The notes under the pieces: model-generated | What the model was told of the DNA's origin: nothing | Seen by the model: the letters and a program-made list of their open reading frames with translations, nothing else | Database searches by the model: none | Part shown: positions 4,303-25,784 of the stretch, one piece after another | Layout: every line of letters begins with the position of its first letter | How positions within the stretch are numbered: position 1 is the first letter of the stretch | Program-made: the position numbers and the translations under genes | Assembly: GCA_003138855.1 (NCBI GenBank) | Contig: PLHF01000035.1 | Span: forward strand, 1 to 38,929 | Source: Acidimicrobiaceae bacterium | Lineage (GTDB): Bacteria; Actinomycetota; Acidimicrobiia; Acidimicrobiales; RAAP-2 | Direction of reading: 5' to 3' | DNA length: 38,929 bases

Positions 4303-5231
4303 CACTGCCTCCTCGGTTCCTTTGGTTGATCACGATCGTGCATCGAAGCTCTCGGGCCGGTCTCGACTGGCCGGTTGGGGTCGGCACCCCACTCCATCCA
4401 CGAGGCGTCGTAGAGGGCGGCGTTCTCGTGCCCCATGACATAGAGCGCGAACAGGGCGAAGGCCCCGAACACTCCACCTCCGCAGTAGGTGATGACCCGG
4501 TGCTCGGGCTCGAGTCCGACCGGCTCCCACAGGCGGGCAAGCTCGGTGGCAGGCAACATGGTCTGAGTGGCCGGATCGACATGGGCCGGGGCGGGCACGT
4601 TGTGCGCGGTCGGGATGTGACCGGCCCGGTGGCCCGGGTACAGGCGGGCCACACCGGTGAAGAACACCTCGGGCAACGCGTCGACGATGCAGATGTCCTC
4701 ACAGCCGATGGCTGCCATCACATTGTCGGCGTCGACCCGCAGTTCGGGATGGACCCGCGCCGTGAAGACCGCCGGCGAGGGTTCGGGTACCTGTTGCTCG
4801 GTGGGACGTCCTTCCGCCTGCCACCGGGTGAAACCGCCATCGAGCAGCTTCACCGCCTCGTGGCCGTAGTAGCGCAGGGCCCACCAGAGCCGAGCCGCCC
4901 ACGTACCGCCCTTGTCGTCGTAGACGACGACGGTGCTGTCATCGCCGATCCCGAGGTGGCCCATGAGCGCTTCGAACCGGTCGGGCGGCAGCACGACGAC
5001 CGGGTCGTCGGGATCGGCCAGGTCGGCCATCACGTCGACGAATACCGCACCGGGGATGTGGGCCTCACCGTAGGCGTCGCGTTCGGCGACCGCCTCCAGC
5101 GCTCCCTCTGGGGTGGCCCGGATGTTGATGCGGGCATCCACCACCCGGACCGACGGGTCAGCGAGATGATCTGCGAGCCATTGTGGTGAGGCTAGGGCCT
5201 CGGGATGTCGGTAGGTCATCGCGTCGATCAC
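4302..5231 (-). CDS. two-domain sulfurtransferase (rhodanese, SseA type)
   Basis: A 309-residue tandem rhodanese: a cytoplasmic enzyme that moves sulfane sulfur from thiosulfate or 3-mercaptopyruvate to an acceptor through a persulfide on its active Cys. The N-terminal domain (residues ~10-140) is the inactive one, with Asp in the active loop (VVVYDDKGG) and the conserved RLWWALRYYGH and LLDGGFTRW segments. The C-terminal domain has the active loop TYCGGGVFGAF with Cys250. The loop is not the CRxGx[R/T] of classical thiosulfate or MST enzymes, so substrate preference cannot be read from it. GTG 5231 is the preferred start (GGGAG seven bases upstream and a GTGA overlap with the upstream small gene); ATG 5219 is possible. 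It is the middle gene of a three-gene overlapping operon. Confidence 0.9.
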   Translation of the reverse strand: MIDAMTYRHPEALASPQWLADHLADPSVRVVDARINIRATPEGALEAVAERDAYGEAHIPGAVFVDVMADLADPDDPVVVLPPDRFEALMGHLGIGDDSTVVVYDDKGGTWAARLWWALRYYGHEAVKLLDGGFTRWQAEGRPTEQQVPEPSPAVFTARVHPELRVDADNVMAAIGCEDICIVDALPEVFFTGVARLYPGHRAGHIPTAHNVPAPAHVDPATQTMLPATELARLWEPVGLEPEHRVITYCGGGVFGAFALFALYVMGHENAALYDASWMEWGADPNRPVETGPRASMHDRDQPKEPRRQ

Positions 5232-11218: not shown

Positions 11219-12304
11219 TCACACGTGAGTGCCGGTCAGCGCCTGGAGCCCCAAGCTGGTCGAGGCCACGAGGACCCACAGGATGGCACCGAGAGCGAGG
11301 GGCCGGAACCCGGCTCGGCGGATCTCCCGTGGCCGGGTGGACAGGCCGATGGCGCCCAGTGCCATCGTGATCATGCCTTCGGCGATGGCCGACAGGGCCT
11401 GGTGCCAGCTGATCGGTACCAGGCCGAACGTATTGAGAGCCACGGCGACGAGGAACCACCCGATGAATACCGGCACGACGTGGCGTATCCCTCTGGGTGC
11501 CTCAGGCCCATTCGCGGTTGTACGCGGACGGCCCGCACGGGCACGCCAGGCCGACAAGGCAATGGCAATCGGGATGATCATGAGCGTGCGGGTCAACTTC
11601 ACCACCACGGCGTAGGTCGCGGCACCGTGCCCGAAGATCGTCGATGCGGCGACGACCGAGGAGAGGTCGTTGACCGCAGTTCCGGCCCACAAGCCGAAGG
11701 CGTGGGGCGAGAGACCGAGCGCGTGACCGATGCTCGGGAAGGTGAGGACCGCAGCCACGTTGAAGGTGAAGATGGTGGCGATGGCATAGGAGACGTCGGC
11801 ATCCGAGGCGGAGATCACCGCATCGGTGGCGGCGATGGCCGATGCTCCGCAGATGCCGGTCCCCACGCCGATCAGCGTCCGCAGATCCCGGGCCACTCCC
11901 AGTGCCCGTCCGATCACGACGGCTCCGAGCAGCGCCACCGCCAACGTGCCGAGGAGAACCGGCAACGACGCACTCCCGATGGTGAGCACCTCGTGGAACG
12001 AGAGCCCGGTGCCCAGGACCACGATCGACGTCTTCAGGACCGTCTTGGCAGCGAAGTTCAGTCCCGGACGCGCCCGTTCCGCCGGCGGGCGGATGAGTGC
12101 GATGCCGATCCCCCCGACGACGGCGAACACCGGGGGTCCGACTACGGGGGCCAGGTGGCCGAGAAGCGTGGCCAGGGCGGTGAGAGCCACGACCGGCACC
12201 AACCCGGGCAGGAGTGCCGTCGCACGCTCCAACCGGGTTCGGCCCGGGGCGGCCTCCACTTCCGCTGGTGCACTCGAGGGACCAGCAGGGTGCCGTACGT
12301 TCAT
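11219..12304 (-). CDS. YeiH/UPF0324-family putative sulfur-anion exporter
   Basis: A 361-residue membrane protein with ten or so helices of the YeiH family. Family traits include the FAAKTVLKTSIVVLGTGLSF stretch, the GVGTGICGASAIAATDAVI re-entrant segment and the LWAGTAVNDLSSVVAA segment with its NDLS motif. Family members have been linked to export of sulfite, sulfolactate or related anions and are often regulated by a LysR protein encoded divergently, as here (12375). Start ATG 12304 is preferred over the longer frame because GGTGG precedes it and the upstream part runs into the divergent gene. The C-terminus ends in a helix (LGAILWVLVASTSLGLQAL). It faces the MFS operon tail-to-tail with only 23 bases between stops. 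Confidence 0.88.
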   Translation of the reverse strand: MNVRHPAGPSSAPAEVEAAPGRTRLERATALLPGLVPVVALTALATLLGHLAPVVGPPVFAVVGGIGIALIRPPAERARPGLNFAAKTVLKTSIVVLGTGLSFHEVLTIGSASLPVLLGTLAVALLGAVVIGRALGVARDLRTLIGVGTGICGASAIAATDAVISASDADVSYAIATIFTFNVAAVLTFPSIGHALGLSPHAFGLWAGTAVNDLSSVVAASTIFGHGAATYAVVVKLTRTLMIIPIAIALSAWRARAGRPRTTANGPEAPRGIRHVVPVFIGWFLVAVALNTFGLVPISWHQALSAIAEGMITMALGAIGLSTRPREIRRAGFRPLALGAILWVLVASTSLGLQALTGTHV

Positions 12305-12361
12305 GTGACCACCTTCTGTCCGGTGGACAGCTCCCGATAGACCGAATCTCGGCGCAGTCAT

Positions 12362-12376
12362 ATAAGGTTCCCTTAT
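12362..12376. promoter_or_regulatory. LysR-type T-N11-A palindrome overlapping the lysR start
   Basis: ATAAGG-TTC-CCTTAT is a perfect inverted repeat (6-bp arms, 3-base centre) and contains the T-N11-A pattern typical of LysR sites (T12363 to A12375). Its right arm includes the ATG of the regulator gene at 12375, so binding there would also repress the regulator. It lies 58 bases upstream of the yeiH-type start. Confidence 0.55.
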
Positions 12377-13289
12377 GCCACTCGCAGAACCGGTTCCTGA
12401 CATCCGCTCGCTCGACCTGCTCCGGAGCGTGGCGGAACTGGGTTCAATCCGGCAGGCCGCCGGCGCACACCACATCAGTCAGCCGGCAGCGAGCACGCGG
12501 CTCCGATCGCTGGAACGGACACTCGACCTGGAACTCCTGGACCGGTCGTCCGGTCGGGCTCGCCTCACAGGCGCCGGGCGCGCGGTCGTGCAATGGAGCG
12601 AGGCGGTGCTCGAGGGAATGCGGGATCTGCTCCTCGGGACCGCGGCCGTGCGGTCGGAGGGGCGGGGCAACCTGCGCATCGCCGCCAGCATGACCGTGGC
12701 CGAGTACCTCGTGCCGGGGTGGCTGAGCCGACTCCGGGCGTCCGACCCGGACGTCGCCGTCTCGTTGCAGATGGGCAACTCCGGGCACGTTGCCGAGATC
12801 ATGCGGGTCGGCGGGGCCGACATCGGATTCGTCGAGGGACCTGATGATCCGCCCGATCTGCACACCCGCGTTGTGGCGGGCGATGACCTCGTGGTCGTGG
12901 TGGCACCGTCCCATCCCTGGGCCCGCCGCCGGCGTCCACTGTCCCCGACCGACCTCGCAATGACACCACTCGTGCTGCGCGAAGAAGGATCGGGCACACG
13001 GGATGTACTCGAGCGAGCCCTCGGCGCCTCCGGTTTGGAGCCCACGCCCCTTGTCGAGCTGGCCTCGACCACGGCCATCAAGGCCTCCGTCGCGGCAGGC
13101 ACCGGACCCGGCGTCCTCAGTCGATTGGCCGTCGAACCAGAAGTGGCCGACGGTCGGATTGTCGTCGTGCCGACATCAGGCATCCGGCTCGAACGCCTGA
13201 TCCGTGCGATCTGGTCGAGCGAACGGCCACTGATGCCAGCGGCCACCAGGCTCCTGCGTCAGCTCAGAGAAAGCGCTGGCGAACGTTGA
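12375..13289 (+). CDS. LysR-family regulator (CysL/YeiE-like)
   Basis: A 304-residue LysR regulator with the usual N-terminal HTH (LGSIRQAAGAHHISQPAAS, then RSLERTLDLELLDRSSGRARLT) and a two-lobe effector domain. The effector segment VAEYLVPGWLSRLRASDPDV and the late REEGSGTRDVLERAL motif are typical of the CysL/YeiE branch, whose members respond to sulfite or related anions and control a divergent YeiH-type exporter. The same arrangement is present here. ATG 12375 is chosen as start; AAGG at 12364-12367 can serve as ribosome site and is part of the palindrome. The last 26 bases overlap the 3' end of the convergent methyltransferase. Confidence 0.88.
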   Translation: MPLAEPVPDIRSLDLLRSVAELGSIRQAAGAHHISQPAASTRLRSLERTLDLELLDRSSGRARLTGAGRAVVQWSEAVLEGMRDLLLGTAAVRSEGRGNLRIAASMTVAEYLVPGWLSRLRASDPDVAVSLQMGNSGHVAEIMRVGGADIGFVEGPDDPPDLHTRVVAGDDLVVVVAPSHPWARRRRPLSPTDLAMTPLVLREEGSGTRDVLERALGASGLEPTPLVELASTTAIKASVAAGTGPGVLSRLAVEPEVADGRIVVVPTSGIRLERLIRAIWSSERPLMPAATRLLRQLRESAGER

Positions 13290-13881
13290 CGGCGCGGACG
13301 ACCGTGTCGACCGCATCTCTCGGGCCATCGTCCGTGTCCACGACCCGAGTTGCCTGCTCCGCCCGTTCGACTGTCAGGCCGGCCTCGACCGCCGCCTCCG
13401 TCACCTCACTGACCCGGTAGAGCACGTCAGGGTTCTGCGGACCCCCGTGCCCGCGAATCAGGTTGTCGACATCGTGGGCGACGACGAGCAGGGTGCCACC
13501 AGAGGCCACAGCTGATGCAGCGATGGCAAGGGCCGCCGAGCGGGCAGGTTGAGGGACCTGCAGATAGAGCACGGCAACGAGGTCGAATCCGTCGGGTGGT
13601 GGCGTCCAATTCTCCACGGCGGATTCGACCCAGGTGACCTCGACGCCCCAGAGGTCAGCGAACCGCTTGGCCTTCGCCAAGCCGACCGGCGAGAAGTCCA
13701 CACCGGTCACCTTCCAACCTTGTTCCGCCAGCCAGATCGAGTTGCGCCCCTCGCCACAGGCGAGATCCACCGCCCGGCCTGCAGGAAGCCCGACGACCTC
13801 AGCCACGAGGAACTGATTGGGCGTGCTCGTCCACACCAACTCGTCGCCGCTGTAGCGCTCGTCCCACTGCTGGCTTTCCAT
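13264..13881 (-). CDS. class I SAM methyltransferase (TehB-like)
   Basis: A 205-residue methyltransferase of the TehB/thiopurine-like group, beginning with QQWDERYSGDELVWTSTPN, which is characteristic of that group. Motif I is AVDLACGEGRNSIWLAEQG, followed by VTGVDFSPVGLAKA (acidic residue for the SAM ribose) and FDLVAVLYLQVP. Relatives methylate soft anions or thiols such as tellurite, selenite or thiols, but the substrate cannot be read from sequence. ATG 13881 is chosen because GGAAGG lies seven bases upstream, whereas GTG 13887 is only one base from it. Its 3' end overlaps the LysR gene on the other strand. Confidence 0.85.
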   Translation of the reverse strand: MESQQWDERYSGDELVWTSTPNQFLVAEVVGLPAGRAVDLACGEGRNSIWLAEQGWKVTGVDFSPVGLAKAKRFADLWGVEVTWVESAVENWTPPPDGFDLVAVLYLQVPQPARSAALAIAASAVASGGTLLVVAHDVDNLIRGHGGPQNPDVLYRVSEVTEAAVEAGLTVERAEQATRVVDTDDGPRDAVDTVVRAVNVRQRFL

Positions 13882-14194
13882 GGTCACGCCTTCCGTCGGT
13901 CGGAGACCACGGAAGAGAACACTGGCGCGCCACGCGGCAAGGCCGAGATCCCAATGCCAGCAGCTGCCGGCAGATGCTCCGCCCGTTCCACCGAGCTCGC
14001 TCTCATCGACCGAACCAGCGTCGCCCCTTTGTCGCCGTCCGAGCGCGGCACTGGCACCGATCCGCTGGGGCCACGTGACCCAGGACCTGCTCCACGTGCA
14101 TGCCGCACCCGTTCCAGGACGGGCGGCTGCACCGCTTGCATGTCACTGCTGCACACATACGCCGTACCTTTCGTCAGCTCGAGCGGTGACCCGC
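13882..14194. other. intergenic, no gene seen
   Basis: About 310 bases between the methyltransferase start and the end of the sulfide-oxidation cluster. Overlapping frames occur on both strands but none is convincing. It should contain the promoter of the methyltransferase and the end of the 14195-gene transcript; no clear intrinsic terminator was found. Confidence 0.4.
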
Positions 14195-14341
14195 TCAGCG
14201 ATGTTCCTTGCGGATGATCTTCGCCATCTTCAGGTTGATGGCGAGGAAGCGCCCGAACTGGGCGATCAGACTGGTGCGGGCCCGAAGGGTCTTGGCCGTC
14301 GGGAGCGGTGCACTGGCGATGTCGTCAGTGGTGTGGTCCAT
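14195..14341 (-). CDS. 48-residue protein following the SQR-like gene
   Basis: A short frame from ATG 14341 to TGA 14195-14197. The upstream run of GGAGAGGAGAGG repeats gives an unusually strong purine-rich ribosome site ending three bases before ATG. The protein starts acidic (MDHTTDD) and ends as one amphipathic, basic helix (LIAQFGRFLAINLKMAKIIRKEHR). No Cys. It lies 19 bases after the stop of the flavoprotein gene, so they share a transcript. The basic amphipathic helix could dock to membrane or to the flavoprotein, which also ends in a membrane-binding helix. I have no family name for it. Confidence 0.68.
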   Translation of the reverse strand: MDHTTDDIASAPLPTAKTLRARTSLIAQFGRFLAINLKMAKIIRKEHR

Positions 14342-14360
14342 CGTCCTCTCCTCTCCTCTC

Positions 14361-15818
14361 CTACTCGGGAATCAGGTGCCAGCCCGGGCGGGCCTTGGCC
14401 TTGTACATGAACATGTAGTGGAGCACCAGCTTGATCCAGTGCCCCGCCAGGCCGATCTCGCCGAAGGTGTCCTTGAGGCTGCGCCCCGTGCCCGGATACT
14501 TCTGGAGGTCGGGCACGACCGGGTACATCGTCATCGACGCCGCGCTCCCGTGGCGTAGGCCGGACCCGGCCGAGGCCACGCAAGCTGCGGCCATGTCGGC
14601 CATCGAGGCCGACCGGACCTGCACCGAGGTGCCGTCCTCGATCATGGCGGCGACGTTGGTGGCGGCCAGCTTGCCCATGATCCCCGATGGCATACCCGTG
14701 CGGGGAGGTGACGGGGCGATGACAGTGCCGTTGGGGGACTTCCTCGGGCGCGAGATCTGGTGGGGTGGGGCGAAGGCGATCCCTACAGCGAAGATGTTGG
14801 GGTAGGCGGGCACCTGGTAGGTGCGGGGCCAGTCCTCGGCCCGCCACTCCTCGAACGGCTTGGCCGTGTAGTCGGCGTCGACCTTCATGAACCCGTTGGG
14901 GGCGAAGAGCTCGGCGCTGATGTCCTCGCCGTCCTTGTCGAACGCCTGGAGGTCAACCCCGCGGAACGGCGGGAGGAGCATGGCGAAGTCGAACGCCAGC
15001 GAATTGCTGGTGCCGTCCAGCTGCTCGTAGTGCACGACGCCGTCCTCGACGCCGGTCACGTGGACTCCGGTGATGGCCCGGATCCCCCGCTCCCGGAACA
15101 GCGACTCGGTCCACAGCTTGGACGTGGTCTGGAACCCCTGCTGGGTGAAGGTCAGTCCACCGACGCCGAAGTCCCCGAGCTCGTACTCGTTGGTCAGGTA
15201 GACGATGTCGGCCAGCTCGCGCACGCCGGCCTGACGCACCTCGTGCTCGACATTGAACGCGTACTCGAAGGCCGCACCCTCGCAGGTGCACGTCCCGTGC
15301 CCCATGCCGACCACGAGGACCTGGCGCTCGCCCTGCTTCATCTTGGCGATCGACGCCTGGAGGGCCGCCGACGCCTCGACGGCGTGGCCCGAGGTACACA
15401 CCGAGTAGGAGTGGCCGTCGGGGCCCAGTCCCGGGGTGGCTCCAAAGTTGAGCTTCGGGCCGGTGGCGTTGATCAGGTAGTCGTATGTGAGCTCGCCGTG
15501 CTCACCGGCCTTCGTCGGATCGGTGTACGTCAGCTCGATGTAGGGCGAATCATGTCCCGCGTCGCCCTCGGGGTGGATGGCGGTGCCAAGTGCCTGTTCG
15601 TAACCGATGCCCCTGCGCTTGTAGATCGGACCGAGCTCGAAGGTGACCTGGTCGGTCTTCATCTTGCCGACCCCGACCCAGATGTTCGACGGGATCCAGT
15701 TCCACTTGGAGTTCGGGGTGACCACCACGACCTCGTCGGAGCGCTTGAGCATCCGGGAGAGATGGAGCGCCGCCGTGTGGCCAGCGATCCCTCCACCCAG
15801 GACTACGACTCGTGCCAT
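14361..15818 (-). CDS. sulfide:quinone oxidoreductase-like FAD flavoprotein
   Basis: A 485-residue two-dinucleotide-binding flavoprotein of the sulfide:quinone oxidoreductase (SQR)/FCSD/NDH-2 superfamily. SQR oxidises sulfide to sulfane sulfur and passes electrons to quinone at the membrane. Seen: FAD-binding VVVLGGGIAGHTAALHL at residues 4-20, the second motif DYLINATGP (~113-121), NAD(P)-like VLVVGMGHG (~167-175), Cys141, the paired Cys177/Cys179 (GTCTCEG) and Cys413, and the late FAD segment NIFAVGIAFAPP. The C-terminal helix GHWIKLVLHYMFMYKAK is amphipathic and probably attaches to the membrane. Start ATG 15818 has CGGAGG upstream; the longer frame would run into the promoter. Cysteine spacing differs from the classical type I enzyme, so the exact subtype is open. 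It has its own CstR-type operator. Confidence 0.85.
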   Translation of the reverse strand: MARVVVLGGGIAGHTAALHLSRMLKRSDEVVVVTPNSKWNWIPSNIWVGVGKMKTDQVTFELGPIYKRRGIGYEQALGTAIHPEGDAGHDSPYIELTYTDPTKAGEHGELTYDYLINATGPKLNFGATPGLGPDGHSYSVCTSGHAVEASAALQASIAKMKQGERQVLVVGMGHGTCTCEGAAFEYAFNVEHEVRQAGVRELADIVYLTNEYELGDFGVGGLTFTQQGFQTTSKLWTESLFRERGIRAITGVHVTGVEDGVVHYEQLDGTSNSLAFDFAMLLPPFRGVDLQAFDKDGEDISAELFAPNGFMKVDADYTAKPFEEWRAEDWPRTYQVPAYPNIFAVGIAFAPPHQISRPRKSPNGTVIAPSPPRTGMPSGIMGKLAATNVAAMIEDGTSVQVRSASMADMAAACVASAGSGLRHGSAASMTMYPVVPDLQKYPGTGRSLKDTFGEIGLAGHWIKLVLHYMFMYKAKARPGWHLIPE

Positions 15819-15846
15819 GTCAATCCTCCGTTCGTTCGCCTCACCC

Positions 15847-15875
15847 ACACTACCAGATACCCCTGGGGGTATCAA
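15847..15875 (-). promoter_or_regulatory. promoter with CsoR/CstR-type operator for the SQR-like gene
   Basis: Reading leftward: -35 TTGATA (15875-15870), a 17-base spacer, and -10 TAGTGT (15852-15847). The palindrome GATACCCCTGGGGGTATC (15856-15873) overlaps the -35 box and fills the spacer. This matches the CsoR/CstR operator form ATACCCC-N2-GGGGTAT. The predicted transcript would start ~20 bases before ATG 15818. A repressor bound here should block polymerase. Confidence 0.8.
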
Positions 15876-15905
15876 CCCATCCGACCGGAGTCGTCATCCG
15901 TCCCG

Positions 15906-16550
15906 TCATCCCGGTTCGGACAGGGTGAAGCACCGCGCCAAGAACTCCGTCAGACGTGCTGCGTCCCTGACGATGGCCACTCCCCGTTCGGGGTCCTTGG
16001 TGATGTCGAGCGACGGACAGAACACATCGGTGCCGCCACAGAAGAAGTGCGGCGAGCCGAGTACGCCACGTCGTCCGCCTTCGTGCCAGTCCGCCACCAC
16101 GGCGGCGTGGTCGGACTCGTCGGGCATGGCCACACCGAGATCGCGGGCCAGGTCCTCGAGGGTGCCCCGGTCCGAGATGTCCCGGCCCTCTTCGAAGAGC
16201 ACGTCCCGGAGCGCGAAGCTCACCCGTTCGCCAACCTGGAGGTCAGTCCGGTAGGCCCGATTGACCAGTGCGAGCGCATCGAAGGTCGAGCGAGGGAACC
16301 GGTCGACGTCGAGGTTCCGGAACAGGTCCGGGGCGACCTGTGCGCGCAGGTCGTCCGCGTGCTCCTTGGTGACCGCGGGATCCAGTGGCGCGCCGTTGAC
16401 CAGCTCCAGCGGCCAGGCCCGCACCCGGATGCCGACGTCGGTGCGGCCGGTCCGGGCCCGTTCCTGCTCGATCGCCCGCAGGCCGACATGGGTGAAGGGG
16501 CACCAGATGTCGGCGAACACCTCGATGACCGCATGCGTCGGTGTGCTCAT
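15906..16550 (-). CDS. DsbA-family (FrnE-like) thioredoxin-fold protein
   Basis: A 214-residue DsbA-type protein without signal peptide, hence cytoplasmic, of the FrnE/2-hydroxychromene-carboxylate-isomerase-like group. The active-site motif after the first strand is DIWCPFTHVG: a C-P-F-T box with one Cys (C17) instead of the usual C-x-x-C. The helical insertion is in the middle, and the cis-Pro loop is present at VLGSPHFF. Two more Cys occur near the C-terminus (FFCGG and VFCPS), which might pair with C17 or with each other. Likely role: disulfide, persulfide or glutathione/mycothiol-type redox chemistry. It lies downstream of a strong hairpin and upstream of the SQR promoter in the CstR cluster. 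Confidence 0.83.
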   Translation of the reverse strand: MSTPTHAVIEVFADIWCPFTHVGLRAIEQERARTGRTDVGIRVRAWPLELVNGAPLDPAVTKEHADDLRAQVAPDLFRNLDVDRFPRSTFDALALVNRAYRTDLQVGERVSFALRDVLFEEGRDISDRGTLEDLARDLGVAMPDESDHAAVVADWHEGGRRGVLGSPHFFCGGTDVFCPSLDITKDPERGVAIVRDAARLTEFLARCFTLSEPG

Positions 16551-16572
16551 CGTCCTGCCTTTCGAGTCGGCG

Positions 16573-16610
16573 AGGGCGGGCGGGACCGGATTGCCGGTCC
16601 CGCCCGCCCT
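16573..16610 (-). terminator. 17-bp GC hairpin between dsbA-like and DUF2892 genes
   Basis: A perfect 17-base inverted repeat (left arm 16573-16589, right arm 16594-16610) with a 4-base ATTG loop, just after the DUF2892 stop in the direction of transcription. It lacks a run of T residues. It may end part of the transcripts or stabilise the upstream mRNA, lowering expression of the dsbA-like gene relative to mmpL-cstR. Confidence 0.65.
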
Positions 16611-16622
16611 AGTGGTGGATCG

Positions 16623-16841
16623 TCAGCTCGCCCGGACAGCCTTGCCGCTGAGCGGCTGTCCGAACAGCACGTTGAACAGGCAGACGTCGAGGGCGCCGGC
16701 GGCGAGTGGGACCAGGCCGACGACGGCGAGCGCCCACCACCCTCCGCCGAGCACTCCGCCGATCACGATCAGCGCCACGCCGGCGAGGATCCGTACTGCC
16801 CGTCCTGCAGCCGATGCCATGAATCGGGAGAATCCCATCAT
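16623..16841 (-). CDS. YgaP-like DUF2892 membrane protein
   Basis: Seventy-two residues, matching the small DUF2892 family, a two-helix membrane unit also found fused to rhodanese in YgaP. After the N-terminal amphipathic SRFMASAAGRAVRI comes a helix (LAGVALIVIGGVLGG) and a second (WWALAVVGLVPLAAGALDVC), then a cytoplasmic FNVLFGQPLSG tail. Cys56 is in the position often conserved as the start of the C-P-x-x tail in relatives. ATG 16841 has AAAGGAG five bases upstream; ATG 16838 is an alternative. In sulfur operons this protein commonly accompanies CsoR/CstR regulators and rhodaneses. It is the third gene of the CstR transcript. Confidence 0.82.
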   Translation of the reverse strand: MMGFSRFMASAAGRAVRILAGVALIVIGGVLGGGWWALAVVGLVPLAAGALDVCLFNVLFGQPLSGKAVRAS

Positions 16842-16878
16842 CCGTGCTCCTTTCCTTGGTTGGCTGTTCCTGTTCTGC

Positions 16879-17148
16879 TCACGCCAACTTGGTGAACATG
16901 CGTTGGACCTCGTCGAGGGGGTAGCCGGATTTGGCTGCCTCCTCGGGATGCTGGACGCAGAAGGTGAGCCCGCTGGCGATGAGGCGGAAGCCGACCTGCT
17001 CGAGCGCCTTGGTCGCCGCTGTGAGCTGGGTGACGATGTCCCGGCACTCTCGACCTTCGGCAAGCATCGCCTCCACGCCGTGCACCTGCCCCTCGACACG
17101 CTTCAGTCGCTTGCGGAGGTCGTCGACCACCTCCTCGGGTAGTTCCAT
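16879..17148 (-). CDS. CsoR/CstR-family repressor, probably persulfide-sensing
   Basis: An 89-residue helical DNA-binding repressor of the DUF156/CsoR family. It begins with the conserved K/R-R-L-K-R-V-E-G-Q-V-H-G stretch in helix 1, then EGRECRDIVTQLTAATKALEQ and the second-Cys segment. Copper-sensing CsoR uses Cys, His, Cys, with His four residues before the second Cys. Here Cys35 and Cys64 are present with the family spacing of 29, but the His position is Gly60. That fits CstR-type sensors, which form di- and trisulfide links between the two Cys when sulfane sulfur is present. Start ATG 17148 is chosen because GGAGG stands seven bases upstream; GTG 17154 abuts it. Matching operators lie at 15856 and 19515-19563, so it should repress its own operon and the SQR-like gene. 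Confidence 0.88.
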   Translation of the reverse strand: MELPEEVVDDLRKRLKRVEGQVHGVEAMLAEGRECRDIVTQLTAATKALEQVGFRLIASGLTFCVQHPEEAAKSGYPLDEVQRMFTKLA

Positions 17149-17199
17149 GATCACCCCTCCTTCCTCATCGCGGACACTTCTCGGGCCACCGGCCCTGGC

Positions 17200-19455
17200 T
17201 CAGTGGGAGAACGTCACCTTGGGCAGAATCCGTCCGAGCCACTTCGGCTGGTGCCAAGCACTGTGCCCACCGAGCCGCAGCATGACCGGGAGCACTACCA
17301 ACCGGACGACCAAGGCGTCGAGGGCCACGGCGATGGCCAGGATCACCCCCATCTCCTTGGGTGCCAGCGGTCCCGACAGGGCGAAGGTCAAGAAGACGGC
17401 GATCATGACGGCTGCTGCCGACAGGACGACCCGTCCCGAGGTGCGCATCGAGCCGATCATGGCGTGCTCGGGATCCGGGTGCGTTTCGTAGCGCTCCTTG
17501 GCCGCCGACAGCATGAACAGCGTGTAGTCCATGGCCACACCGAAGACCATGGCTCCGAAGAACAGCGGGGCCCAGGCGTCGATGAACCCCTGGGGCTGGA
17601 AGTTCAGCGGACCGGAAAGGAACCCGTTCTGGAAGATGAGGCGCCCGATGCCGAAGGCGCCCGCCACCGACAGGGCGGTGATGAGCACGCCCATCGCCGC
17701 TATCAGCGGCGCCCCCAGCGCGATCAGGAGCAGGAGGAACCCGAGGACCCCGAGTATGGCGAGGACGATCGGCGTGTGGGATGCCAACGACACTTGGAGG
17801 TCGTGGTTCTCGGCCGCCGCTCCGCCGATCAGCGTCCCGGCCGGGAGCACCTGACGGAGACGATCGATGGTGGCACCCGTGGCGGTCGTCGACGGCCCGG
17901 TGGTCGGGACCACCTGGTCGAGGGTCCACCCGGCATTGGTCGGACCCGGCACGGCGCCGGCCACCCCGGAGGTGTGGGCGAGGATGGCCATGGCCTTGGC
18001 CTGCTCATCAGCGGGCACGACCACCTGCAGGGTGCCCGGTGCCCCGGGACCGAAGGCGGAGGTCACCTGGTAGTAGCCGACCCGGGCGTTGGCGCTGGGC
18101 GGCACGATCGTGATCGAGGGCATGTTGGTCCGCATGCCGATGACCGGTGCGGCGGCCAGGAGCAGGAAGACCAGGGCGGCTGCACCTGCTGGGAAGGGGT
18201 GCTTCCACAGGAACTTGCCCCACCGGTGGAGCTGCCGGTCGAGTGGCCCCTCGCCCACCTTCGGGCCGCCGCGCCCGAGGCGGATCGTCCCCTTGTTGAT
18301 GTTGGTGCCGAGCTTGCCGAGGACGGCCGGAAGGAGCGTGAGGGTGGCGGCAAGCACCGCGATGACCGACAGCATGATCCCGAAGGCCATGGACCGGAAC
18401 GCCGGGCTGGGCACGATGAGGATGGCGGCCAGGGAGGCAAGCACGGTCAGGGCACTGAAGGCCACGGCCTTTCCGGCGGTGTCGACCGTCTCGGCCACGG
18501 AGGCGACGATGGCCTCCCGGTCACCCGGTTCCGCGCCGCGTCGCTGGAGTGCGGATCTGAAGCGCATGACCAGGAAGAGGGCATAGTCGATACCCAGTGC
18601 GAGGGCGAACATCAAGGCGAAGTTGAGCGCCCAGATCGAGACCGGGGTGAACTTGGTGGTGATCACCAGTGCGCCTGCAGCCACCAGTAGGCCGGCCATG
18701 GTGAGGAGGAGCGGGAGCCCTGCCGCCACCAGACTGCCGAAGGCGATGACCAGGATGATGATCGTCACCGGCCAGGACAGCATCTCCGACTTGAGCATGG
18801 CGGAGCGGTTGGCCGTGTTGAAGTCAGCCCACAGGGCGCTGTCGCCGGTGAGGGTCACGGTGACGCCGGCGGTGGAGAGCGCGGCCAGCTTCGGCTCGAC
18901 GGCGTCGGCCGCCTGCACCATCTTGTTCGAGTCGGCGGCGGCGCCGGCCGTGATGATGGCCGTCCGTCCGTCCCTCGAGATCGAGACGCCGGCCTGGGGT
19001 GCGACGACGGTGGACACCCGCGGATCGCTGCGGAGCACCCGGGTCGCCTTGGCCACGACGGCCTGGGCACGGGGGTCCGACGCGATCGGACCGTGGTGGT
19101 CGACGATCACCACCTGCAGCCCGGTGGCGCCGAGGCCGGCGAAGTCCTTTTCGATGACGGCACGGGCGGCGACGGACTGGCTGTTCGATGCCTGCCACCC
19201 GGCACCGGCGAGCGCGTTCTCCACATGGACGGCGAAGATCCCGAAGACCAAGACCACCAGGATCCAGGCGATGAGCACCCTCCGGAAGTGGGTGGCGGCC
19301 CAGCTGCCGAGACGGGCGAACGGACTGGGTCGCCCCACGTGGATCGTGTCGTCGGCCACGCCGAGGCTGTCCCCGATCGGGACCGGACCGTCATCGACCT
19401 CGGTTGCTGCCGTCGCCTGGGGTGAGTCGAGTCCGGTTCCTCGGGTCGCGGCCAT
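17200..19455 (-). CDS. MMPL/RND-family transporter
   Basis: A 751-residue transporter of the MMPL type (RND superfamily), driven by protons. Layout: N-terminal cytoplasmic ~55 residues, TM1 (VLIAWILVVLVFGIFAV), a large extracytoplasmic loop, TM2-6 with the key GIDYALFLVMRF motif in TM4, a cytoplasmic linker (IRLGRGGPKVGEG), TM7, a second outside loop, and TM8-12 with the matching VAMDYTLFMLSAAKERYE motif. Both Asp-Tyr pairs expected for proton transfer are present. Relatives export lipids, siderophores or small hydrophobics; the cargo here is not deducible. Start ATG 19455 keeps the operator region non-coding, although the frame stays open to 19545. It is the first gene of the CstR-controlled operon, 51 bases ahead of cstR. 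Confidence 0.9.
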   Translation of the reverse strand: MAATRGTGLDSPQATAATEVDDGPVPIGDSLGVADDTIHVGRPSPFARLGSWAATHFRRVLIAWILVVLVFGIFAVHVENALAGAGWQASNSQSVAARAVIEKDFAGLGATGLQVVIVDHHGPIASDPRAQAVVAKATRVLRSDPRVSTVVAPQAGVSISRDGRTAIITAGAAADSNKMVQAADAVEPKLAALSTAGVTVTLTGDSALWADFNTANRSAMLKSEMLSWPVTIIILVIAFGSLVAAGLPLLLTMAGLLVAAGALVITTKFTPVSIWALNFALMFALALGIDYALFLVMRFRSALQRRGAEPGDREAIVASVAETVDTAGKAVAFSALTVLASLAAILIVPSPAFRSMAFGIMLSVIAVLAATLTLLPAVLGKLGTNINKGTIRLGRGGPKVGEGPLDRQLHRWGKFLWKHPFPAGAAALVFLLLAAAPVIGMRTNMPSITIVPPSANARVGYYQVTSAFGPGAPGTLQVVVPADEQAKAMAILAHTSGVAGAVPGPTNAGWTLDQVVPTTGPSTTATGATIDRLRQVLPAGTLIGGAAAENHDLQVSLASHTPIVLAILGVLGFLLLLIALGAPLIAAMGVLITALSVAGAFGIGRLIFQNGFLSGPLNFQPQGFIDAWAPLFFGAMVFGVAMDYTLFMLSAAKERYETHPDPEHAMIGSMRTSGRVVLSAAAVMIAVFLTFALSGPLAPKEMGVILAIAVALDALVVRLVVLPVMLRLGGHSAWHQPKWLGRILPKVTFSH

Positions 19456-19514
19456 GGGAAGCAATCCTTTGATCAGACCGGTACACGCACTCGGAAGGAG
19501 GGGCGCATGCACGG

Positions 19515-19565
19515 ATACCTGGGTGGGTATGTGGAATAGTAACACGATACCCCCCCTGGTATCAA
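19515..19565 (-). promoter_or_regulatory. promoter with two CsoR/CstR-type operators for mmpL-cstR
   Basis: Reading leftward: -35 TTGATA (19565-19560), 18-base spacer, -10 TACTAT (19541-19536). Operator 1, GATACCCCCCCTGGTATC (19546-19563), overlaps the -35 and spacer exactly as at the SQR promoter. Operator 2, ATACCTGGGTGGGTAT (19515-19530), lies just past the -10, near the transcription start. Two sites suggest tighter repression here than at the single-site SQR promoter. Confidence 0.8.
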
Positions 19566-19866
19566 GCAGTTTGTCGAAGCGGCTTAGCGTTCCGCGCCGC
19601 CAGAGAGCCGGCCGTCAGCTCACAGCAGCATGAAGCGCACGCACGAAGGGCGGGTGAATGACGGCCCCTAACTGCCCGTAGGCGAACGAGTCTGCGCTCC
19701 TTTCACAGGAGAGCAGGGTGCCGACGGAGCCCAGTCACGGCACAAGCGCAAGTGAACATCGCGAGCGAATCCCCCGAGGACGGGATACCTGGCGAATGTC
19801 GGCCTCGCAGGGACGTGCTACCAAAGCTTGGCGACGCGCCCCTCAGTCCGAGTCGACCTGCCGCCG
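19566..19866. other. intergenic between mmpL promoter and NUDIX 3' end
   Basis: Three hundred bases without a credible gene. A single half-site GGATACCTGG at about 19785 resembles half of the CsoR/CstR operator but has no partner. Nothing else was recognised. Confidence 0.4.
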
Positions 19867-20273
19867 TTACCGATCCGCTACTAGGAGTCCGTGCTCGGTG
19901 AGGAAGTCGACCTGCTCCGTGTGCATGGGGTCGGGTGGCGCCGTGAACCACCCTCGTCCGGAGCTGGCGTCAGCCGTCAGGTCGACGTGGCAGAGGAATG
20001 CAATGCCGACGGGTGAGTCCAATCCGTTGAGGTAGTGGCTCGGGTACTCGATGTAGCCGAGGAGTGGCCCCGCTTTGATCTCCAGGCCGAGTTCCATTGA
20101 TGCGACCCGTTCGACTGCGGCGACCAACGGCTCGCCGAACCGTACCGTGCCCCCAGGGATGTGCCACAGTCCCGAACACGGCCCTTCCGTACGCTTCGTC
20201 AAGAGAATGCCGAGCGGACTCTGGATGACTACCTCAACAGTACCGATCCGATTCGCCGATGGACCTCGGGCAC
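19867..20273 (-). pseudogene. NUDIX hydrolase with probable 5-bp duplication frameshift
   Basis: The C-terminal ~125 residues form a NUDIX domain: TVEVVIQSPLGILLTKRTEG, GLWHIPGGTVRFGEP and the Nudix-box end ERVASMELGLE, where two of the usual Glu are replaced as in GDP-mannose-type relatives. YPSHYLNGLDSPVGIAF follows. The domain frame has no ATG, GTG or TTG for more than 70 codons upstream and would run antisense through the methyltransferase at 20398. A natural N-terminus, VPEVHRRIG, begins at GTG 20273 in another frame. Between them is a tandem repeat CCGATCCGAT (20243-20252); removing one copy joins RRIG directly to TVEVV. So a 5-bp duplication probably broke the gene. An unusual start inside is the alternative. 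Confidence 0.62.
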
Positions 20274-20397: not shown

Positions 20398-21117
20398 ATG
20401 CCTGACAGCGCCGATACGAACGAGGCCATCTGGAAGTCTGATGCTGCGATCTCGCACTGGGTATCGACGGCCGAGGACCGTGAGCGCCGACGCGCCGACG
20501 AGCGCCGGCTCATGGCTGAGCTGCTGCCGTTCGACAAGGACCAGCAGTTCACCTTCATCGACCTGGGCGCTGGGACCGGCGCTGCCGCTCGGGTGGTCCT
20601 CGACTACTTCCCCGGCGCACGAGCCATCCTGGCCGACTACTCCTTGCAGATGATGGAGCAAGGGCGCCGTGAGCTCTCCGCCTTCGGGGATCGCTATACC
20701 TATGTCGAGTTCGATCTCGCTCGCGGCCCCTGGCCGACGGAGATCCCGAGTGAGGTCGACGCAGTCATCTCGTCACTGTGCGTCCATCACCTCCCCGATG
20801 AGCGCAAGGGGCAGTTGTTTGCCGAGGTCCTGGAGCACCTGCTTCCCGGGGGCTGGTACCTCAACTACGACCCTGTCACGACCGAGGATGCAGTCGTCGA
20901 GGCAGCCTGGTTGCGGGCCGGGGACCGCCGTGACCCCGAAGCAGCAGCGAAACGGGAGAATCGAACGCCCGAAGAGCAGTCCCGCCACGAGAACCATGTT
21001 CGATACATGATCCCTCTCGCCCCTCAGCTCGACCTCTTGGAGGAAGCGGGCTTCGAGGGGGTCGACGTGTACTGGAAGCAGCTCGACCATGTCATCTACG
21101 GCGGTAGACGACCCTGA
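20398..21117 (+). CDS. class I SAM methyltransferase
   Basis: A 239-residue methyltransferase. After an N-terminal helical cap (AISHWVSTAEDRERRRADER) comes motif I FIDLGAGTGAAARVVLDYF, the acidic strand AILADYSLQMMEQG, the EFDLARGPWP segment and the post-II VDAVISSLCVHHLPDERK typical of methyltransferase domain 25-like proteins. The C-terminal part (YWKQLDHVIYGG) is a final strand. The substrate is unknown. No clear ribosome site precedes ATG 20398. It points away from the decayed NUDIX gene, with 124 bases between them, so they may have shared a divergent promoter. Confidence 0.87.
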   Translation: MPDSADTNEAIWKSDAAISHWVSTAEDRERRRADERRLMAELLPFDKDQQFTFIDLGAGTGAAARVVLDYFPGARAILADYSLQMMEQGRRELSAFGDRYTYVEFDLARGPWPTEIPSEVDAVISSLCVHHLPDERKGQLFAEVLEHLLPGGWYLNYDPVTTEDAVVEAAWLRAGDRRDPEAAAKRENRTPEEQSRHENHVRYMIPLAPQLDLLEEAGFEGVDVYWKQLDHVIYGGRRP

Positions 21118-21706: not shown

Positions 21707-21811
21707 AAGGTGACGTCACCCCGTCAGCCGTCTTGACGCCTGCTCGCTGCAGGGTGACGTTCACTTGCCGGCCTCATCCCTGGCCAGGATCCTCTTTCGC
21801 CAAGGTGACGT
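21707..21811. repeat. three copies of a GGTGACGT motif
   Basis: AAGGTGACGT (21707-21716), AGGGTGACGT (21751-21760) and AAGGTGACGT (21802-21811) occur at 44- and 51-base spacing just upstream of the transposase gene. A related AAGGTGACGC lies at about 23494-23503 on the other side. They could be transposase sub-terminal sites, or chance. Confidence 0.3.
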
Positions 21812-21891
21812 TGGGGGTGGGCGGATTCAAGGGGTCCGCGCAACTTTTCGGTGAGTCAACGACGCTGCAGTTGACGACCGAGGAGGTCCAC

Positions 21892-23034
21892 ATGGCATTG
21901 ACCAGAGGCGATCACAGCCGGGCACGGAAGCTGAGATCCGAGGGTTTCTCCCTGCGTGAGGTGGGCCGGCAGATTGGTTGTTCTGCACAGGAGATCTGGC
22001 GCATCTGTCGGATCGACTCGACCCGCGGGACCTACATCGACCACTGGGTTCCGGGGCCTGGGCGGTTGACGCTGGCCAATCGCGAGGAGATCAGCCTCGG
22101 GCTGGAGCGGGGCGAGACCGTCACGGCCATCGCTGGGCACTTGGGCAAGGCGGTGTCCACCGTGTCCCGCGAGGTGAAGGCCAGCGGGGGCAGAGAGGAC
22201 TACCGGGCATGGCAGGGCCACGAGCGAGCTGCGAAGTGCGCCAGGCGCCCGAAGACCCTCAAGCTGTCGTGCCCCCGGCTGGCCGCTCAGGTCACGACGT
22301 GGCTGGAGGAGTGGTGGTCACCCGAGGAGATCGCCCTCCGCTTGCGTGCGGAGTATCCAGACGATCCGATGATGTGGGTGAGCCACGAGACGATCTATCG
22401 GAACCTCTTCGTCCAGGGGCGGGGTGAGCTCCGCCGGGAGCTGGCCCGGTGCCTGCGTTCGGGCCGGACCACCCGAAGGCCCAAGGGGCGTATCGAGGCG
22501 CGGGGTCACCATCCCGACATGGTGATGATCAGCGATCGCCCGGCAGAGGTGGCTGACCGGGCCGTTCCGGGCCACTGGGAAGGCGACCTGATCATCGGGA
22601 AGGCCGGAGCCTCGGCGGTCGGCACGCTGGTCGAGCGCACCACCCGCTTCGTGCTGTTGCTGCACCTTCCCGACGGCCGATCGGCGGAGCAGGTGAACGC
22701 CGCCATGAAGGTGGCCATCGCCACTCTGCCCGGTGAAATGTTCCAGACGATCACCTGGGACCAGGGATCCGAGATGGCCCGCCATGCCAACTTCACCATC
22801 GACACCGGCATACAGATCTACTTCTGCGATCCGCACAGTCCGTGGCAGCGCGGCTCCAACGAGAACACCAACGGATTGCTCCGCCAGTACATGCCAAAAG
22901 GAACCGATCTCTCACTGCTATCCGCTGAAGATCTGGCCCGGTTCTCACGCAGCCTCAACAACCGTCCCCGCAAGACTCTTGGAATCATGAAACCATCGGA
23001 GAAGCTCGCCGAACTTCTTGCGCTGACTGGTTGA
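21892..23034 (+). mobile_element. IS30-family transposase
   Basis: A 380-residue transposase, apparently intact. Residues ~10-45 form the first HTH (FSLREVGRQIGCSAQEIWRI) and ~62-95 the second (SLGLERGETVTAIAGHLGKA, then VSREVKASGG). The DDE catalytic core follows: first Asp in GHWEGDLIIGKAG, second in TWDQGSEMARH, and the Glu in RGSNENTNGLLRQYMP. The N-E-N-x-N-G-L-L-R signature is diagnostic of IS30. The C-terminus holds LNNRPRKTLG, also typical. ATG 21892 follows a GAGGAGG ribosome site. IS30 elements are bounded by ~25-base inverted repeats, which I could not identify, so only the gene span is given. It stands between the methyltransferase and the integrase module. Confidence 0.92.
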
Positions 23035-24402: not shown

Positions 24403-25656
24403 TCAGGAGATGGGGTTGAGGGCGATCTCAGGGAGATTGAGACCAGCCTCGAGCGAGTCGGCCGCCGCCTGAGCCTGAGCGTTTGTGTTCGCTGTGTAAA
24501 CCCGGAGTGTGATCGCCGGATCAGCGTGGCCAAGACGGTCCGCGACCGTTTTCGGGTTCATCCCGTCGGCGAATAGTTGGGTTGCCGTGTAGTGCCGGAG
24601 ATCGTGTAACCGGAATGACCAGCGCTCTTCGAATGGCAGATCCTTTGACGTGGCCGTCGGTTTCGTCTTACGCAGTTCGCTGAGGGCCGGTTGCTCCATG
24701 CGACGACATAGGCGTTCGAACGATTGAGTCACGGAATCCGGGTGCAGGGGCCGGGCCCCGTCGGGATCTGCGCTGAACACGTACCCCTCTGGAAAAAGAC
24801 CCACATTTGCGCCTGAGGCATCGATCTCCGCTCGAGCGTATCTGCCTCGCAGAACTGTCATTGCCTGCTCTCCCAGGACCAACCGCCGGGCCTGATGGCT
24901 CTTCGGGCCCTTCGTTCCGATCCCATCGGGCGTCTGCCAAATTGATCGGCGAACGTCGATCGCGGCGGCTTGCCAATTGACGTCGCTCCAACGGAGCCCG
25001 CAGAGTTCCCCTCGGCGCATGCCCGTGAGTGCCGCGAGCGTCACGATCGTGGCTAGCTCAGGATTCCTAGCCCCGCCACGACCGGCCTCCACGATCAGCG
25101 CACGCACCTGCTCCGGCGATGGAACGCTTGTCTCCACGTTGCGTGCCGATGGTGGTGTTGCATCATCGGCGACGTTTCGATCAACCCAGCCCCACTTCCG
25201 ACCCTGCTTGAGCGCAGCACTAATGATCCTGTGATGGTAGAGAACCGTGCTCGGGCTCAGGCCGCTGGCCAACTGGTCGGCATAGAGCCGATCGAGGTCG
25301 TGGGCGGTCAACTTGTCCAGCGGCACGGCACCAAGGGTGGGAAGGATGGCCTTGTCGATTTTCCGCTTGTACTCGTGGAGCGTCTTCGGACTCCTCCCCA
25401 TCCGGTCGGAATGATCGAGCCATTCGCTCAGGAGAGCCCCCAAAGTCGCCTTGCTGCCTCCGTACTCGCCCCGTTCGACGGCTGCTACCAATGAGGCGAG
25501 TTTCCGTTCGGCCGCTCGCTTGCCAGCGCCAGGTTCCTTTCGATTTGCAACGTATGACCGGCTGATCTGCTTCGGCTTGCCGGTGACCGGGTCACGACCG
25601 ACGAAGACTCGAATCTGCCAGTGCCCGGGTGAGCGCTCTCGCATGGTGCCTGCCAT
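24403..25656 (-). CDS. int: tyrosine recombinase (phage-type integrase)
   Basis: A 417-residue integrase: an N-terminal arm-binding domain (MRERSPGHWQIRVFVGRDPVTGKPKQ...), a core-binding SAM-like domain (TLGALLSEWLDHSDRMGRSPKTLHEY...) and a catalytic domain from residue ~165. Catalytic residues are visible: Arg in TGMRRGELCGL, Lys near IGTKGPKSHQARR, H-x-x-R in LHDLRHYTATQL, His in RLGHADPAITLRVY and the nucleophile Tyr at its end. ATG 25656 is chosen because the protein begins with the usual arm-domain sequence soon after it; the frame extends to ATG 25695. The gene reads away from a tRNA-Thr whose 3' end is only ~50 bases upstream of the start, the classic layout for integration into a tRNA. 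Confidence 0.93.
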   Translation of the reverse strand: MAGTMRERSPGHWQIRVFVGRDPVTGKPKQISRSYVANRKEPGAGKRAAERKLASLVAAVERGEYGGSKATLGALLSEWLDHSDRMGRSPKTLHEYKRKIDKAILPTLGAVPLDKLTAHDLDRLYADQLASGLSPSTVLYHHRIISAALKQGRKWGWVDRNVADDATPPSARNVETSVPSPEQVRALIVEAGRGGARNPELATIVTLAALTGMRRGELCGLRWSDVNWQAAAIDVRRSIWQTPDGIGTKGPKSHQARRLVLGEQAMTVLRGRYARAEIDASGANVGLFPEGYVFSADPDGARPLHPDSVTQSFERLCRRMEQPALSELRKTKPTATSKDLPFEERWSFRLHDLRHYTATQLFADGMNPKTVADRLGHADPAITLRVYTANTNAQAQAAADSLEAGLNLPEIALNPIS

Positions 25657-25664
25657 ACCGAGAC

Positions 25665-25684
25665 TGTAGGCCATTTGTAGGCCA
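25665..25684. repeat. 11-base-spaced direct repeat next to the integrase
   Basis: TGTAGGCCA occurs at 25665-25673 and again at 25676-25684, one helical turn apart, between the integrase start and the tRNA 3' end. The position fits an arm-type integrase or excisionase binding site. Confidence 0.45.
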
Positions 25685-25708
25685 ACCATGCGCAACTTCT
25701 CACAAACA

Positions 25709-25784
25709 TGGAGCCTGGGAGGAGAATCGAACTCCTGACCTACGCATTACGAGTGCGTTGCTCTACCGACTGAGCTACCCAGGC
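25709..25784 (-). tRNA. tRNA-Thr (anticodon CGU)
   Basis: The minus strand folds into a full cloverleaf. The acceptor stem is GCCTGGG (25784-25778) with CCCAGGC (25719-25713), the D-arm starts TAGCTCAGTCGG, and the anticodon stem ACGCA/TGCGT carries loop CTCGTAA with anticodon CGT. The T-arm is AGGAG-TTCGATT-CTCCT. The discriminator base is T and the CCA end is encoded (25711-25709). The 3' half is the likely attachment site of the element whose integrase lies beside it. Confidence 0.95.

Follow-up and report, generated by a model that had tools for sequence, protein, structure and literature searches.

Can a transporter of the MMPL/RND type belong to a regulon that responds to reactive sulfur, and what might it carry there? 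This question is raised by a gene cluster on a 38,929-nucleotide contig of an Acidimicrobiaceae bacterium (NCBI GenBank assembly GCA_003138855.1, contig PLHF01000035.1, whole stretch hereafter the window), which is contig C49 (G000:C49) of a 4.0-Mb assembly in 155 contigs. On the minus strand the cluster runs in the order mmpL, cstR, a DUF2892/YgaP-type transmembrane gene, a DsbA-fold gene, the gene for sulfide:quinone oxidoreductase (SQR), an open reading frame (ORF) of 48 aa and a Cys-rich ORF of 51 aa. We consider it quite probable that this cluster is a CstR-type reactive-sulfur regulon that includes both the MMPL and the SQR genes. The combination of repressor, operator and SQR is close to known systems, and the novelty is the membership of the MMPL. 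An original prediction, made from the sequence alone, had proposed such a regulon, and its genes and their coordinates were confirmed by ORF and Pfam checks. The features on which the argument depends were as follows.

17200..19455, minus strand: MMPL/RND transporter (mmpL), 751 aa, no cysteine, MmpL3-like modelled fold (PF03176, E 9.6e-65, 219 bits; AF2 model)
16879..17148, minus strand: CstR-type repressor with C35 and C64 and a glycine in place of the CsoR histidine (PF02583, E 3.7e-21; alignment)
16623..16841, minus strand: DUF2892/YgaP-like transmembrane protein, 72 aa (PF11127, E 2.2e-7)
15906..16550, minus strand: DsbA-fold protein with CPFT at the DsbA CxxC position (PF01323, E 1.9e-10)
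14361..15818, minus strand: SQR, 485 aa (phmmer against 3hyv, E 1.9e-31, and 3sz0, 4.6e-31)
14195..14341, minus strand: 48-aa basic protein downstream of SQR, here small48 (homologues after SQR in relatives; AF2 helix)
19547..19562, no strand: operator 1 upstream of mmpL, overlapping the -35 box (pattern search)
19515..19530, no strand: operator 2 upstream of mmpL, 32 bp from operator 1 (genome pattern search)
15857..15872, no strand: operator ATACCCCTGGGGGTAT upstream of SQR (pattern search of window and genome)
19536..19565, minus strand: mmpL promoter, TTGATA-18-TACTAT (sigma-70-like promoter scan)
15847..15875, minus strand: SQR promoter, TTGATA-17-TAGTGT with a weak -10 box (found by reading the sequence; the promoter scan did not return it)

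The pattern ATACCN6GGTAT occurred three times in the cluster, at 15857 before SQR and at 19515 and 19547 before mmpL, and the longer form GATACC...GGTATC was found exactly twice in the window and in none of 100 shuffles. Across the 4.0-Mb genome the relaxed pattern ATACCN{4,8}GGTAT, with 5-nt arms, was matched seven times (three in the window, three on contig C25 and one on contig C150), and a reversed control pattern once. The regulon reading draws in part on six of these seven matches falling in two sulfur clusters, that of the window and the one on C25 described below. The accessible text on ScCsoR, a CsoR-family repressor of Streptomyces coelicolor, describes binding to ATACCn6GGTAT and two such sites in the promoter of a dioxygenase gene (PMC7533328); the window operators have identical arms and spacing.

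The two promoters had been described as identical in design, with palindromes over the -35 boxes, and as flanking the cluster. Both do carry an operator over the -35 box, but their -10 boxes are not alike, and a single operator is present only before SQR, mmpL having two. Since the SQR promoter sits between dsbA and sqr, within the cluster, the promoters do not flank it. The mmpL promoter was the sole sigma-70-like match in 13200-19900; with one match observed and 0.5 expected from shuffles, this call is weak evidence by itself.

The cysteines of the window repressor, C35 and C64, are 29 residues apart, as are C37 and C66 of ScCsoR, in which polysulfide weakens DNA binding through modification of Cys37 with the participation of Cys66, as given in the accessible part of that source (PMC7533328). 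Four PF02583 matches were found in the genome, of which the C149 member was left out of the repressor alignment. At the position where the genome's C126 CsoR carries a histidine, four residues before C64, the window repressor has G60; the histidine was also absent from the C25 repressor (74 % identical to that of the window) and from five plasmid repressors of relatives. This histidine is the copper ligand of the Cys-His-Cys site of CsoR, a site that the window repressor consequently lacks. A regulon responsive to copper or another thiophilic metal would share the protein family and a similar operator, and genes of metal type (P-type ATPase, cadmium transporter, alkylmercury lyase, multicopper oxidase) are found close to the plasmid loci. 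Because the copper-ligand histidine is missing and the gene content is of sulfur type, with promoters leading to SQR in the window and to sulfur-type genes at C25, such a regulon appears improbable from the sequence data. CstR-type regulation by the window repressor and operator is, as a prediction from sequence, well supported, and the proposed grouping of a CsoR/CstR repressor, palindromic operators and SQR was borne out by the operator, the cysteines and the missing histidine.

For the SQR, residues C141, C179 and C413 align to cysteines of the solved enzymes 3hyv and 3sz0 (C413 in a weaker second stretch) and were invariant in 16 aligned sequences; their counterparts are the catalytic cysteines of SQR. 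The protein also has the FAD/NAD fold of those enzymes. The type III model (NCBIfam SQR_III_seleno) scored 45.6 bits, below its cut-off of 525. Among relatives, represented by the best 80 of 544 confirmed loci, ATACCN{4,8}GGTAT was matched 124 times in 1.18 Mb, and of 78 SQR genes with at least 200 bp of upstream sequence, 55 had an exact operator within 300 bp and 12 more had one with a single mismatch only. Other genes adjoining operators in these loci encoded MMPL, CstR, thioredoxin, DUF2892, PIG-L and CoA-disulfide-reductase-like proteins, together with dioxygenase-like, TauE-like and channel-like neighbours that were named by eye from the gene list. The DsbA-fold protein of the window has CPFT and not CxxC, which does not fit a classical dithiol DsbA, and phmmer found no relative for it in the PDB at E 0.001.

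Membership of the MMPL superfamily was indicated by a PF03176 score above cut-off and by the MmpL-like modelled fold. The AF2 model, built from 11 sequences (pLDDT 65, pTM 0.59), had MmpL3 (7n6b) as its best PDB match, alike over the full length (TMq 0.78, 23 % identity). The Asp-Tyr pairs D290-Y291 and D643-Y644 were invariant in the 11 sequences, and such pairs carry protons in MmpL3. The protein nevertheless differs from MmpL3, the trehalose monomycolate exporter, in its low identity (22-24 %), in its score on the corresponding NCBIfam model (190 bits against a cut-off of 1400) and in its sulfur-regulon context. Its score for the HAE3 family (TIGR00921) was also below cut-off (97 bits against 351.9).

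The link between MMPL and the regulon was followed across 62 MMPLs of at least 37 % identity. The SQR search contributed 10 of them, MMPL searches 45 and the own genome 2, and the remaining 5 are from plasmid loci that were hand-chosen among 20 of 43 matching records. With the window MMPL as query, the order (198 genomes, E 1e-100) yielded 24 matches spread over 23 genomes, and a phylum sample (396 genomes, E 1e-90) had matches in 27 genomes, 5 of which were already in the order set; wide neighbourhoods were retrieved for 12 of the 24 order matches and 20 of 30 phylum matches, and about 1.5 kb for the others. Near-copies are present among the rows (the window with L016-L018; L039 with L043), and some genomes may overlap.

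An exact operator was present within 500 bp upstream of 30 of the 62 clade members, at 43 sites in 29.5 kb compared with none in 200 shuffle rounds; including 40 bases of the gene start adds one row (L027) and brings the count to 31. A CstR gene lay within 2 kb of the MMPL in 31 of 62, and by either counting 39 had an operator or CstR, with L120, where CstR is more than 2 kb away, scored as neither. More than one exact site was found upstream in 12 rows, spaced by 31-35 bp in nine of them. None of 30 other MMPLs had an exact upstream operator (Fisher 2e-7, which overstates independence as the rows are related); these controls were 32 loci minus L210, which yielded no usable ORF, and L235, which yielded no match; they included three fragments of less than 400 aa and were searched over about 400 bp. 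The fairest figure comes from the 45 rows that only the MMPL search produced, with 17 exact operators and 16 CstR genes; for the order rows of that search the figures were 13 and 11 of 22. The own genome encodes six proteins with an MMPL domain, one of them weak, and by position the operators are confined to the genes on C25 and C49. In the midpoint-rooted MMPL tree, a well-supported clade of 31 rows held 26 with CstR or operator, 1 with an ArsR-type regulator and 4 with neither, and a second deep clade of 14 rows held 13 with CstR or operator and 1 with neither.

The gene arrangements around these MMPLs were varied. The full set of MMPL, CstR, DUF2892, DsbA-fold protein and SQR recurred in L016, L017, L018 and L020, so the gene combination is not absent from all relatives, an outcome that would have spoken against the original prediction. 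Four loci have an SQR 92-93 % identical to that of the window; three are labelled Acidimicrobiaceae and one Dormiibacterota, with bog or palsa isolate names in three of the four. Elsewhere the order was operator, CstR, MMPL, dioxygenase-like, TauE-like and DUF302 in L129 (by similarity to references); operators, MMPL, CstR and DUF302 in L173-L175; and MMPL, YgaP-type transmembrane protein, DUF302, TauE, CsoR-family regulator and MBL/rhodanese on plasmid pBD2 of R. erythropolis. The dioxygenase-like, TauE-like and SLAC1-like reference names were taken by eye from L090, L067 and L077; the pBD2 relative was checked and has an MBL fold and rhodanese. A Tsukamurella plasmid carries MMPL, DUF2892, DsbA and an SQR-like gene beside a CsoR-family gene and DUF302, and no operator was seen at this locus; its DsbA (Rv2466c-like) and SQR-like proteins (the latter best on the type III SQR model, below cut-off) were rejected as orthologues of those in the window. 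The MMPL is bound to the CstR regulon across families, through CstR, the operator or both; the link is real and extends beyond the source genome. A neighbourhood formed by chance or by hitchhiking on an island, as a transposase and an integrase beside a tRNA-Thr gene 2-6 kb away could suggest, is highly improbable, given operators that are rare in the genome yet recur before MMPLs of several families.

The clade is also marked by its poverty in cysteine. Fifty-four of the 62 members were Cys-free and the other eight had one each (8 in 43,702 residues), compared with 56 cysteines in 22,387 residues of the control MMPLs, where 4 of 30 were Cys-free. The Fisher value of 5e-12 overstates independence, the rows being related, and the contrast is slightly favoured by counting full-length ORFs for the controls and only the aligned part for clade members. 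This poverty is consistent with a pump that meets thiol-reactive cargo. Members linked to an ArsR-type regulator were equally poor, so the trait marks the clade and not the CstR link.

A paralogous copy of the cluster is present on C25. Here an operator precedes DUF2892 and a methyltransferase gene, and another lies between mmpL and a divergent run of thioredoxin, cstR, DUF302, sqr and small48; further on are YeiH and LysR. Beyond these, a third operator overlaps the start of a Cys-rich small ORF, and behind this ORF is a CoA-disulfide-reductase-like/rhodanese fusion (428 bits; the cut-off for CoA-disulfide reductase is 579). The two SQRs are 68 % identical, and both copies have a nudix gene, a methyltransferase, YeiH and LysR in common. 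The original prediction noted neither dioxygenase nor rhodanese and proposed that sulfur might be exported rather than oxidised. The absence holds for the cluster itself but not for the genome, which has the C25 fusion, ten rhodanese matches, a two-domain rhodanese in the window (4302-5231, minus strand, about 9 kb from the cluster, no exact operator nearby) and a C145 protein that, over residues 1-445, shares 46 % identity with the dioxygenase-like protein of L129 and also matches rhodanese. Relatives (L129, pBD2) moreover join MMPL, MBL-fold and TauE genes in one run. Export in place of oxidation was therefore rejected as stated; with dioxygenase-like and rhodanese proteins encoded, the exporter comes on top of oxidation and reduction, with no obvious sign that it takes their place.

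Several observations weigh against the regulon reading or limit its reach. The C150 operator match adjoins a gene that reads as pilin-type and not as a sulfur gene, and the operator also resembles copper CsoR/RicR-family sites, as the accessible text of PMC7533328 indicates. Neither operator nor CstR was found for 23 of the 62 clade MMPLs, and no operator, even at one mismatch, was found at plasmid loci L180 and L183, where a CstR-family gene is near the MMPL. The stretch flanking the C145 dioxygenase-like/rhodanese gene likewise had no operator at one mismatch, so that gene may lie outside the regulon. An ArsR-type regulator was present within 700 bp of the MMPL in 15 of 62, and in the wider-phylum rows it dominates (14 of 23, compared with 4 exact operators and 5 CstR genes).

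This ArsR-type gene adjoins MMPL in L156-L161, L163, L166-L169, L171, L172 and L125, among others, and the 17 rows that branch with the 31-row clade comprise 14 with ArsR and 3 with neither regulator. Nine aligned ArsR-type neighbours had an invariant C90xxxC94 near the C-terminus, and the protein may be another sulfur or thiol sensor. BigR has a wide cysteine spacing; identity with SqrR/BigR is not claimed, the invariant pair being C90xxxC94. An exchange of regulators, CstR for ArsR-type, beside the MMPL clade is possible.

MMPL pumps are known for carrying envelope lipids, siderophores and drugs. That the MMPL of this regulon serves membrane repair or the transport of an ordinary envelope lipid, being merely induced by sulfur stress with no sulfur cargo, is a serious possibility, though somewhat short of even chances. 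In structure it is closest to MmpL3 entries, of which one is titled as a lipid transporter binding trehalose monomycolate and phosphatidylethanolamine, and the accessible text of PMC9405070 reports that added sulfide alters fatty acids in E. faecalis. The joining of MMPL with SQR, MBL/rhodanese, TauE and DUF302 in varied arrangements, one of them with non-orthologous DsbA and SQR-like partners, and the near-absence of cysteine in the clade speak against a purely lipid role without excluding it. Export of a reactive sulfur compound beside oxidation and reduction, such as a hydrophobic polysulfane, a persulfidated lipid or a persulfide conjugate of a low-molecular thiol, is a tentative alternative. 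It would fit the company kept in the regulon, the Cys-poor transporter clade and a PIG-L protein of the second cluster, whose top scores came from bacillithiol deacetylase models, with mycothiol amidase scoring lower; relatives of this protein (L012:6898-7578) were present in 14 of 80 SQR loci, directly behind an operator in a few. Against it, the PIG-L scores were below every family cut-off, and the poverty in cysteine extends to the ArsR-linked rows. That the nearly Cys-free MmpL3-like clade, linked to CstR or to ArsR(CxxxC), is a dedicated exporter of a hydrophobic compound laden with reactive sulfur, and so a third exit for sulfane sulfur, is a speculative and rather unlikely extension.

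Taking the cluster as a CstR-type reactive-sulfur regulon, the following sequence of events can be proposed. In resting cells, the repressor would occupy ATACCN6GGTAT at the two promoters and silence mmpL-cstR-DUF2892, possibly with dsbA, and sqr-small48. When persulfides build up from sulfide oxidation, C35 and C64 would be modified, the repressor would leave the DNA and both units would be switched on; this sensing and derepression is modelled on ScCsoR and CstR, and the enzyme activities and operon structure on characterised relatives. SQR would pass electrons from sulfide to quinone and make sulfane sulfur, and the MmpL3-like MMPL would export an amphiphilic or hydrophobic compound, either formed or required during persulfide stress. 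The CoA-persulfide-reductase-like enzyme of the second cluster and the dioxygenase-like protein elsewhere in the genome would probably handle sulfane sulfur as well.

Two small protein families accompany the regulon as new elements alongside the MMPL. A homologue of small48 was found 7-135 bp after SQR in 78 of the 80 loci, with no detectable protein of this type after SQR in L079 and L080. The family consensus is APLPTxxTLRxRxnlxxQxxRF, one helix was predicted at residues 16-47 (AF2, single sequence, pLDDT 81.7) and no Pfam, NCBIfam or PHROG family was matched. An amphipathic character of the helix gave a weak signal (mean z 1.3 over shuffles) and was not counted as evidence. On Sulfurovum, Marivivens and Thiodictyon plasmids, too, SQR relatives are followed by ORFs of about 52-53 aa that are annotated as hypothetical, and two of these ORFs, when translated, had by eye a similar RF...N stretch. 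The 48-aa protein is a likely candidate for an overlooked SQR partner. The second family is the Cys-rich ORF of 51-53 aa (TCxxC...WxGCGxHV; for example L012:15943-16104), which likewise has no family model. Its motif occurs in 18 of 82 loci; for 12 of its 21 matches an exact operator lies no more than 200 bp upstream, and the window's own copy is not one of these.

This ORF and the remaining features around the cluster were as follows.

14003..14158, minus strand: 51-aa Cys-rich ORF, MCxxxTCxxC...WxGCGxHV (ORF reading, motif search)
16573..16610, minus strand: perfect 17-bp GC-rich hairpin in the DUF2892/dsbA gap, a possible processing or termination site (inverted-repeat search; absent from the terminator-like list)
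13264..13887, minus strand: TPMT/TehB-like methyltransferase, conserved neighbour (relative in the C25 cluster)
12375..13289, plus strand: LysR regulator, conserved neighbour (relative at C25)
11219..12475, minus strand: YeiH family (Cons_hypoth698) permease, conserved neighbour, start codon uncertain (PF03601, E 8.2e-67; relative at C25)

Beside the cluster is a likely integrated island with an rve/HTH_38 transposase (21733-23034), a phage-type integrase (24403-25695) and tRNA-Thr (25709-25784). An 18-base perfect inverted match (18586-18603 and 20451-20468) links mmpL and a methyltransferase gene and may be due to chance; among 238 loci it was found only in six own-genome stretches and at one L017 site.

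The CstR operon of S. aureus carries SQR and TauE, and thus combines CstR, SQR and an exporter as in the window, but with TauE as the exporter and not MMPL. The S. coelicolor circuit, in which sulfane sulfur releases the repressor, is similar to the window in its two-Cys CsoR-family repressor, ATACCn6GGTAT operator, two sites in a target promoter and sulfur-handling targets; the four genes named in the accessible text encode the regulator, a dioxygenase, a rhodanese and a sulfite transporter, with no SQR or MMPL (PMC7533328). In E. faecalis, CstR controls a CoA-persulfide reductase (CoAPR) with a rhodanese domain, and similar domains lie behind the C25 operator; the operon as accessibly described has two sulfurtransferases and coaP and, unlike the window, no SQR or MMPL is named (PMC9405070). 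The SUL modules of Arthrobacter plasmids share a CsoR regulator, sulfur dioxygenase, TauE and DUF302, but their further transporter is MFS-type and the MMPL mentioned in the accessible text sits in another module (PMC6305408). A search of the open literature gave no paper that joins CstR with sulfane sulfur and MMPL, or MmpL with hydrogen sulfide and persulfide, and the accessible texts on CsoR, MMPL and DUF302 do not describe the CstR-MMPL link.

The MMPL exporter is tied to the CstR regulon, as originally predicted, in relatives with CstR, the operator or both. This pairing of CstR with an exporter recurs in distant relatives and may point to a response to sulfur stress that has so far gone unrecognised. 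The small48 protein, which has no family model and follows SQR so regularly, is probably a partner of this well-studied enzyme that has escaped notice. If the regulon reading is true, an MMPL clade spread over several actinobacterial families would gain a new physiological trigger in the form of a reactive-sulfur repressor, and the operator link would give a direct route to finding the cargo of the pump.

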